Assembly: GCA_903902895.1 (NCBI GenBank)
Contig: CAIUWO010000631.1
Location: forward strand, 1 to 49,287
From: Candidatus Hydrogenedentota bacterium
Lineage (GTDB): Bacteria; Hydrogenedentota; Hydrogenedentia; Hydrogenedentales; CAITNO01
DNA: 49,287 nucleotides
Reading direction: 5' to 3'
Shown: one piece after another, positions 43,764-46,173 of the stretch
How positions within the stretch are numbered: position 1 is the stretch's first letter
Layout: the number at the start of each line of letters is the position of its first letter
Notes under the pieces: generated by a model
The model's input: the letters and a program-made list of their open reading frames with translations, nothing else
Databases searched by the model: none
What the model was told of the DNA's origin: nothing
Made by a program: the position numbers and the translations under genes

Positions 43764-43971
43764 CTTATTGGCGTCTTCTTATTTCTTTTCCCTGTGTCTT
43801 GTGAGCCAGCAGTCAAATGTTCCTTAACAATAGTGGGTCCTAACGGCGGCGGGCGGTATGCTGCCCGTAGGCACCGATGCTATACTACCCGCCAACCGCA
43901 AACCTATTCTTATTGCGTCCATTTGCCGCACCGAGTTCCCCAGCGACCGGCCGCGGAGAGAGGAGACCTAT

Positions 43972-46173
43972 ATGCGTATTCTTGTGACCGGCGGGGGAGG
44001 GTATCTGGGCAGCATCGTGGCTGAGACGCTTGTGGGCCGGGGCCATTCAGTGCGGGTGTTCGACCGTTTCTGTTACCTGCCGAAAGGGGTGGGCCCGGAA
44101 TCGCTCTTCGGTTCAACGGCGGCTGGGGCCTCGGGCACGCTGGAACTGGTCACCGGGGATATCCGCCGGCTGCAGGAAACGGCAGGACTCCTGGACGGCA
44201 TAGAGGCCATCGTCCATCTCGCCAGTCTGTCCAACGACCCTTCCTGCGACCTTGACGAGGATATGGCCTATGACGTGAACACCGAAAGCACACGCGAGCT
44301 GGCCCGGTTGGCGGTGGAAAGGGGTGTCCGCCGTTTTGTGTTCTCCTCGAGTTGCGCGGTCTATGGACGCGGCGTTTTTGAACTCCTCGACGAGGAAAGC
44401 CCGGCCAATCCGGTGTCCACCTTCGGCAAGAGCAAACTTGCGGCGGAACAGGCTGTGCTGCGCATGGCCTCGCCGGCGTTTGAGCCCGTGGTGGCCCGAA
44501 TGGCCACCCTGTTCGGCTGGTCGCGCCGCATGCGTTTTGACCTTGCCATCAACCAGATGGTCGCCACGGCGCTCCGCCAGCACCGCATCACGGTCCGCGG
44601 CGGCGGCGGCCAGTGGCGGCCCTTTGTGCATGTGCGCGACGCGGCCGACGCGACGACGCTGCTGGTGGAGGGGCCAACCCATCTCGTGGCGGGCGAAACC
44701 TTCAACGTTGGGTCGGACATTCACAATATCCGCATCCGGGACCTGGCCGAGCGGGTGGCCCGCCGCATTCCGGGAACCGCCCTGGAGACGCTCAAGGACG
44801 ACGACGACCAGCGCAATTACCGTGTGCAGTTCGGCAAGGTCCGTGGACGTCTTAATTTCATATGCCAGTGGAGCATGGACGAGGGCGTTGAAGAAGTGCG
44901 CCGGGGAATCGAATCGAATCCGGACCTTGACCCCTTTGACGACCAGCACTTCAATGTGGCAAAGATGAAGACGCTCCTGGCCATGCCGGTCGACGAGGGC
45001 GGCGAACCCGTTGCCGCGCGGTTCATTCCCCTCAGCCGTCCGGCCATCGGCGTCGAGGAGGAGGGGGCCGTGCTGGACGCGCTGCGCAGCGGGTGGCTCA
45101 CCTCGGGACCGCAGGTGGGCACTTTTGAGCGGCTTTTTGCGGAGACCGTTCACGCCCCGCATGCCATCGGCGTCGTGTCCTGCACGGCGGCGCTGCACCT
45201 CTCGCTCGTTCAACTTGGCGTGGGCCCCGGCGACGAGGTGATTATGCCGCCCATCACCTGGGCCTCCACAGGCAACACCATCCTAAACATGGGCGCAAAG
45301 GTCCGTTTTGTCGATGTGGAACCGGACACGCTCAACATGAACCCCGAACTGGTCGAGGCGGCCATAAACGAGCGCACAAAGGCCATCATGCCGGTGCACA
45401 TGTCGGGGCATCCCTGCGACATGGACCGCATCAACGCCATCGCGCGGCGCCATGGCATTCCGGTCATTGAGGATGCGGCGCACGCCTTGGGCGCCTCCTA
45501 CAAGGGCGTGCCCATCGGCGCGCTCGGAACCCACAGCTGTTTCAGTTTCTACGCCATCAAGAACATCACAACCATGGAAGGCGGAATGATCACCCTCGCC
45601 GACCCCGACGCCGCCGCGCGCCTGCGCCTGCTGGCCGCCAACGGCATGACGGCCACCGCCTGGGACCGCTACGGCCGCAGCGCCGTGCCCACACCGGCGC
45701 AGGTGGTGACGCCCGGATACAAATACGCGCTGGGAAATGTTGGCGCGGCAATGGGCGTCGTGCAGCTCAAGAAGTTTGCCGCCTTCAAGGCGGCCCGGAC
45801 CCGCCTGGCCGGCATGTACCGAGCCGTCTTGTCCGAAGTTGACGAAATCACGCTGCCTGTGGAGCGCGAAGGGGTGGAGCATGCGTGGCATCTGTACATC
45901 GTGCGCCTCAATTTGAACAAACTGAGCCGCTCGCGCGACGAGATTGCCCAGGACCTGCGCAGGGAAAATATCGGGACCGGGGTCCATTTCTACGGACTGC
46001 ATCTGCATCCCTATTACCGGGAGACGCTTGGCCTGCGCCCCGAGGACTATCCCGAGGCGACCAGCGCCTCTGAGGACATTCTGTCGCTTCCCCTTCACCC
46101 GCAGATTACGGACAAGAATCTGCACGAGGTCGTCTTCGCCTTGAAGAAGGTGCTGGCGCACCGGAAGAAGTAG
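43972..46173 (+). CDS. Fused NAD-dependent epimerase/dehydratase and DegT/DnrJ/EryC1 aminotransferase
   Basis: 733 residues. Residues 1-320 are an extended SDR: GGGGYLG (7-13) binds NAD, SSSCAVYG follows, but the catalytic YxxxK reads F151-G-K-S-K155. Residues about 345-733 are a PLP-dependent sugar aminotransferase: Lys530 in FYAIKNITTMEGG is the Schiff-base residue, with EDAAHALGA and HPYYRE also typical. It would oxidise, dehydrate or epimerise a nucleotide-sugar and aminate it for surface glycan. ATG 43972 has AGGAG six bases upstream. Fusion of the two activities in one chain is uncommon. The Phe makes classic SDR catalysis doubtful. Confidence 0.93.
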   Translation: MRILVTGGGGYLGSIVAETLVGRGHSVRVFDRFCYLPKGVGPESLFGSTAAGASGTLELVTGDIRRLQETAGLLDGIEAIVHLASLSNDPSCDLDEDMAYDVNTESTRELARLAVERGVRRFVFSSSCAVYGRGVFELLDEESPANPVSTFGKSKLAAEQAVLRMASPAFEPVVARMATLFGWSRRMRFDLAINQMVATALRQHRITVRGGGGQWRPFVHVRDAADATTLLVEGPTHLVAGETFNVGSDIHNIRIRDLAERVARRIPGTALETLKDDDDQRNYRVQFGKVRGRLNFICQWSMDEGVEEVRRGIESNPDLDPFDDQHFNVAKMKTLLAMPVDEGGEPVAARFIPLSRPAIGVEEEGAVLDALRSGWLTSGPQVGTFERLFAETVHAPHAIGVVSCTAALHLSLVQLGVGPGDEVIMPPITWASTGNTILNMGAKVRFVDVEPDTLNMNPELVEAAINERTKAIMPVHMSGHPCDMDRINAIARRHGIPVIEDAAHALGASYKGVPIGALGTHSCFSFYAIKNITTMEGGMITLADPDAAARLRLLAANGMTATAWDRYGRSAVPTPAQVVTPGYKYALGNVGAAMGVVQLKKFAAFKAARTRLAGMYRAVLSEVDEITLPVEREGVEHAWHLYIVRLNLNKLSRSRDEIAQDLRRENIGTGVHFYGLHLHPYYRETLGLRPEDYPEATSASEDILSLPLHPQITDKNLHEVVFALKKVLAHRKK

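Follow-up and report, generated by a model that had tools for sequence, protein, structure and literature searches.

A phenylalanine at the catalytic tyrosine position of an SDR-aminotransferase fusion from Candidatus Hydrogenedentota, and the standalone SDRs that may act with it

What does the SDR half of an SDR-aminotransferase fusion contribute when the tyrosine of its catalytic YxxxK motif has become a phenylalanine, and which enzyme would then oxidise the sugar that the aminotransferase half may aminate? We addressed this question for a gene in the window, that is, the whole stretch of DNA that was analysed, 49,287 nucleotides from contig CAIUWO010000631.1 of a Candidatus Hydrogenedentota bacterium.

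The fusion gene and its two halves

The gene and its parts are located in the window as follows:

43972-46173, + strand: SDR-DegT fusion gene of 733 aa, a single open frame with ATG at 43972 and the TAG stop at 46171-46173
43972-44916, + strand: SDR half, residues 1-315, with the NAD motif GGGGYLG, D31, S126/S127, F151 in the place of Tyr, K155, RMRFDL and QWRPF
44422-44424, + strand: codon TTC within FGKSK, Phe151 at the catalytic Tyr position
44434-44436, + strand: codon AAA, Lys155, the lysine remaining from YxxxK
44917-45021, + strand: interdomain linker, residues 316-350, with P321, N328, L335, P339, G343, G344 and P346 nearly invariant
45022-46170, + strand: DegT aminotransferase half, residues 351-733, of the ArnB / GDP-perosamine synthase type
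45559-45561, + strand: Lys530, the lysine that forms the PLP Schiff base; 55 of 56 aligned rows have K here, all but the L077 remnant

Both halves of the protein are recognised by Pfam, the Epimerase family (PF01370) at residues 3-247 with 141 bits against a cut-off of 20.9, and the DegT_DnrJ_EryC1 family (PF01041) at residues 359-724 with 404 bits against a cut-off of 19.8, the latter with its PLP lysine, K530, present. A longer open reading frame starting at 43858, which would add 38 amino acids upstream of the Rossmann start, is probably not used; relatives of the fusion start at the equivalent Met. Since aminotransferases filled the list from a fold search with the whole protein, a separate search was run with an AlphaFold2 model of the SDR half (residues 1-345, pLDDT 90). 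This half belongs to the extended SDRs, with the Rossmann NAD motif GGxGYxG present as GGGGYLG and fold Z scores of 34-38 to SDRs, and its [ST]-xn-YxxxK triad is incomplete, Ser and Lys being in place and Tyr being Phe151. Its best profile match is Cj1427 (6.9e-56, the next match reaching 6.5e-40), which also comes first by fold (PDB 6VO6/6VO8; Z 37.7 over 300 residues at 27% identity, tied with the second rank at Z 37.4). The aminotransferase half aligns with ArnB (4OCA) at 44% identity and Z 49.2 over 361 residues, tied with GDP-perosamine synthase at Z 48.8, and scores below the NCBIfam equivalog cut-off for ArnB (389.6 vs 631 bits).

The original prediction had described an epimerase-aminotransferase fusion with Phe at the catalytic Tyr position of the SDR half (TTC at 44422, in FGKSK) and an intact aminotransferase lysine. 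The substitution and the lysine (K530 at 45559-45561) were both confirmed, and the fusion of an SDR with an aminotransferase is borne out by the two Pfam domains, but epimerase is a doubtful name, since the C4-dehydrogenase Cj1427 is the closest characterised relative. A sequencing error as the source of Phe151 was rejected, since Phe is found in 37 of 54 fusions, among them those of L040, with 89% identity across its 589 residues, and L063, with 80%.

Catalytic states and constraint across the phylum

With the full protein as query, matches at E<=1e-60 were obtained in 57 of 68 genomes of Candidatus Hydrogenedentota, and the fusions of 54 Hydrogenedentota genomes were aligned together with two from outside the phylum. 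One genome (G019), which has the aminotransferase end only, at a contig edge, was left out of the counts; the other 13 genomes are without a full fusion, and G037 has its fusion in two pieces, on contigs C35 and C562. The fused dyad is Phe/Lys in 37 of the 54 genomes and an intact Tyr/Lys in 12. Three others (G057, G060 and G067, which correspond to L128, L125 and L129) keep Tyr and have Ser or Asn for the catalytic Lys, a second way of losing the dyad, and in the remaining two (G015 and G016; L140 and L141) the whole catalytic loop is deleted and the QWRPF strand is also gone, with the aminotransferase half intact. The original prediction had looked to the conservation of Phe among homologous fusions and had named relatives with Tyr as evidence to the contrary; both were found, Phe in the 37 genomes above and Tyr in 15 of the 54.

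As reconstructed from sequence, Tyr is the ancestral state of the fused SDR. When the tree is rooted on outgroups that are all Tyr/Lys (a Streptomyces fusion together with SDRs from Nitrospinota), Tyr is the state of the deepest branches within Hydrogenedentota, those of family f4. At least three changes between Tyr and Phe, whose codons differ by a single base, are required on the rooted tree, and likewise three on the unrooted whole-protein tree, the exact number being uncertain, since Streptomyces sits on a very long branch and parts of the inner tree are weakly supported. The tree with both far outgroups had very long branches; it was rebuilt without them and then rooted on the Nitrospinota SDRs.

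Relatives outside the phylum show other arrangements. At three Nitrospinota loci (L077, at 397-2301, L153 and L157), a Tyr/Lys SDR of the fused-SDR family is joined to a shortened, degenerate DegT remnant, the opposite of what is seen in Hydrogenedentota; no PLP lysine was found in these three remnants, and that of L077 matches DegT with 30.7 bits over 77 residues. This mirror case indicates that either half of the fusion can be lost while the other is kept. In Streptomyces altiplanensis (L066, 5687-7870), a Tyr-type SDR-DegT fusion lies near glycosyltransferase and polyketide synthase genes, and strong matches are rare in the family of this organism: at E<=1e-90 they occur in 2 of 249 genomes, and one of the two is an aminotransferase only. 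A further locus titled Nitrospiraceae (L050, JAACEL010000107.1) carries a fusion identical to that of L026, from a genome placed in Hydrogenedentota (G045), and is probably a mislabelled metagenome bin.

Within the phylum, the SDR half is strongly constrained in its Phe form. For close pairs of Phe rows, the dN/dS of this half is 0.06-0.15 where computable, two further Phe pairs being saturated, and it is 0.09 for the genus pair L001-L040. Terminal branches are longer in the SDR half than in the aminotransferase half by a median factor of 1.26 in 34 Phe rows, against 1.24 in 10 rows with Tyr/Lys (p 0.26), and by factors of 3.1 and 4.8 in the loop-deleted rows G015 and G016. Phe rows, like Tyr rows, show little or no variation in the NAD motif, Asp31, Ser126, Lys155, Arg176, RMR-F-D at 186-190, Arg216 and Arg281, and the Tyr hydroxyl is the sole loss among these residues in Phe rows; 61 SDR columns are nearly invariant in the 52 in-group rows that exclude G015 and G016. 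Given that the NAD/substrate pocket is kept and that the Phe domains evolve no faster than the Tyr domains, the Phe domains are not decaying. Simple decay was rejected for the Phe rows on the basis of dN/dS and branch ratios and accepted for G015 and G016 only, where, as judged from codon substitutions, relaxed selection is confined to the SDR half (dN/dS 0.35 vs 0.09 in the aminotransferase half, with SDR-half branches 3-5 times longer).

Standalone SDRs and the state of the fused dyad

A standalone SDR of the fused-SDR family is present in most genomes, and Tyr and Lys are kept in all 55 of the fetched genes. Most of these standalone SDRs belong to two orthologous types, hereafter P1a (14 of 68 genomes) and P2 (32 of 68), which never occur together; the source genome has P2 (G000:C378), and the best sequence match of P2 is Cj1427. 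P1a or P2 is present in 40 of 42 broken-dyad genomes vs 1 of 12 intact-dyad genomes (Fisher p 9e-9, a value that ignores descent), the types having been defined after the dyad pattern was seen; when any standalone homolog at E<=1e-25 is counted, the figures are 40 of 42 vs 2 of 12. Among genomes with a completeness of at least 90%, they are 30 of 31 vs 0 of 5, and within family f11, which contains a 7-genome clade without P1a or P2 that holds Tyr/Lys, 8 of 8 vs 1 of 9. By type of break, a standalone gene of either type accompanies the fusion in 35 of the 37 genomes with Phe, in all three that lost Lys and in both with the loop deleted, and it is found in 4 of the 13 genomes without a full fusion. 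The association rests on about four independent changes, and an independent-pairs test yielded two pairs on well-supported (starred) branches and none to the contrary (p 0.5), with significance out of reach.

The exceptions are few. The sole intact-dyad genome with a standalone gene is G050, which has P2 and whose tree neighbour G049 has P2 with Phe; G050 would represent the expected intermediate, with P2 present and the dyad still intact. The broken-dyad genomes without P1a or P2 are G037 (94% complete) and G042 (63%), in which a more permissive search found no P2; a fragment in G037 was considered as a hidden P2 and rejected, as it proved to be the missing N-terminus of that genome's own fusion.

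The tree requires at least five replacements between P1a and P2, and the two types share genomic partners. RmlD follows P1a or P2 at a distance of 12-67 bp, on the same strand, in 14 of 46 genomes, RmlC adjoins in 10 of 46, and one or the other is present in 21 of 46, counts in which some loci have less than 1.5 kb of flank. Representative RmlD and RmlC proteins score above the NCBIfam equivalog cut-offs, and the RmlD type associated with the standalone genes is present, at E<=1e-70, in 30 genomes; P1a or P2 accompanies it in 29 of these, and G050 is the only intact-dyad genome that has it. The swapping and the common RmlC/RmlD partners suggest one role for P1a and P2. No such gene was seen beside the fusion, and near the 56 fusion loci there was no RmlC match and a single RmlD-like one (25%). 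Deriving a function from the neighbourhood of the fusion was rejected, since no neighbour family is common to more than 8 of the 56 loci.

Proposed role, alternatives and known enzymes

We propose, with a probability of about one half, that the fusion serves NDP-sugar amination: the 4-keto sugar would be produced by the Tyr fusions themselves, in cis, or by P1a or P2, in trans, where the Phe half is a binding pseudo-dehydrogenase, and would then be aminated. The SDR half would once have been a working NAD-dependent 4-dehydrogenase, a reaction suggested by its observed family and kinship with Cj1427. As Tyr is replaced by Phe in the source genome and 36 others, this half is expected to be a poor redox catalyst there, still holding NAD(H) and the NDP-sugar. 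The ketone would be supplied by a standalone Tyr/Lys SDR, P2 in the source genome and P1a in others, and this intermediate, presumably shared, would have two fates: amination by the fusion, or epimerisation and reduction by RmlC/RmlD. Transamination would fall to the ArnB-like half, which has the PLP lysine, and the Phe half would be kept as a binding and scaffold domain, perhaps capturing the 4-keto sugar for the aminotransferase site fused to it. A genome without P1a or P2 must, on this proposal, oxidise the sugar with the fusion itself and so keeps Tyr/Lys; where a standalone enzyme supplies the ketone, the fused dyad would be free to go, through Phe, a lost Lys or a lost loop, with the pocket usually kept. 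That P1a and P2 feed the fusion is something we infer, and they may serve just their RmlC/RmlD branch. A more specific version is possible but doubtful: that the Phe half is a natural pseudo-dehydrogenase which binds NAD and NDP-sugar without redox and captures or channels an unstable 4-keto sugar from P1a or P2 to the aminotransferase. In this version, the arrival of the standalone enzyme would have been followed by repeated losses of Tyr, and the step would have moved from cis to trans across the phylum.

Of the roles originally suggested for the SDR half, substrate binding or a changed reaction, binding instead of redox is the best-supported reading, in view of the retained pocket and the strong purifying selection, and the earlier interpretation is partly supported overall; the ancestral Tyr relatives, the loss of Lys or of the whole loop in other relatives, and the apparent move of oxidation to a separate gene were not foreseen in it.

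The constraint on the Phe domain, equal to that on the Tyr form, would also be expected if the Phe half were still a working oxidoreductase using another base (Ser/Thr127, Cys128, water or a 2'-OH network), a reading we regard as rather unlikely. The Phe rows retain K155 (37 of 37), S126 (37) and C128 (35), and there are precedents: PglF and WbpM are described as active 4,6-dehydratases, natural NDP-sugar SDRs with Mx3K for Yx3K (PMC8987622), and a Tyr to Phe change in UDP-GlcA 4-epimerase (Y149F) is reported to leave NAD+ bound and slow activity, about 1200-fold reduced, through an alternative base (PMC7984243). However, the substitute base of PglF is a Thr-Asp pair, whereas here Cys stands where Asp would be and the next base position is mostly Ala/Ser; at least three Tyr/Phe interchanges have occurred with no accompanying catalytic-site change fixed, and one lineage has dispensed with Lys and a different one with the loop, all in the presence of a standalone SDR.

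It is unlikely that the link to P1a and P2 is a phylogenetic coincidence, in which Phe/Tyr drift is near-neutral, the fused SDR has been non-catalytic since the phylum ancestor, and the standalone enzymes belong to an unrelated RmlC/RmlD pathway. The independent transitions are indeed few, Tyr and Phe codons toggle by one base, and P1a and P2 are linked to RmlC/RmlD and not to the fusion; yet a neutral site is not expected to keep Tyr/Lys in the f11 clade lacking the standalone genes and to lose it where they are present, and the replacement of P1a by P2 without loss suggests a needed function. Most improbable is that the whole SDR half is dispensable baggage, as the missing loop and strand, raised dN/dS and long branches of G015 and G016 might suggest, because this is true of those two only and conflicts with the low dN/dS of the Phe clade and the nearly invariant columns of the other 52 rows. 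If our preferred reading, amination with the ketone made in cis or in trans, is true, the phylum holds a natural series of one enzyme, from an active Tyr/Lys fusion, through a fusion with an added standalone SDR (G050), to fusions that lost Tyr, Lys or the loop, in which a catalytic domain can be traced while becoming a binding domain, its chemistry passing to another gene. It would also caution against calling such fusions bifunctional from their domains, and would point to a 4-amino sugar pathway in an uncultured phylum.

Among the titles and opening abstract lines of openly licensed literature, we found no description of an SDR-DegT fusion or of such a Phe SDR. The aminotransferase half, with its PLP lysine intact, resembles ArnB (UDP-4-amino-4-deoxy-L-arabinose aminotransferase) and GDP-perosamine synthase. 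To our knowledge, ArnB is not fused to an SDR, and WbpB is not an SDR. In WbpB/WbpE-type pairs, according to the available portion of the source, an NDP-sugar is oxidised and the ketone is aminated by a DegT enzyme, with NADH reoxidised by alpha-ketoglutarate in one organism; these are two separate proteins acting at C3, whereas here the halves form one chain (PMC10622841). The fusion shares with PglF and WbpM the character of an NDP-sugar SDR without the catalytic Tyr; these enzymes have Met and a TDK acid/base set, whereas here we find Phe and S/T127-C128-A/S129, with TDK absent, and the excerpted text does not mention an aminotransferase fusion (PMC8987622). Cj1427 is a single domain with the catalytic Tyr, in contrast to the Phe-bearing fusion described here, and its 3,5-epimerase and 4-reductase neighbours differ from the 56 fusion loci, which are without RmlC nearby. 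In the part of the source consulted, it is an NAD-dependent GDP-D-glycero-D-manno-heptose 4-dehydrogenase that oxidises C4 and holds NADH tightly, the NADH being reoxidised by alpha-ketoglutarate, with an epimerase and a reductase acting next (PMC10680097). As in this pathway, P1a and P2 often sit with 3,5-epimerase and 4-reductase genes.
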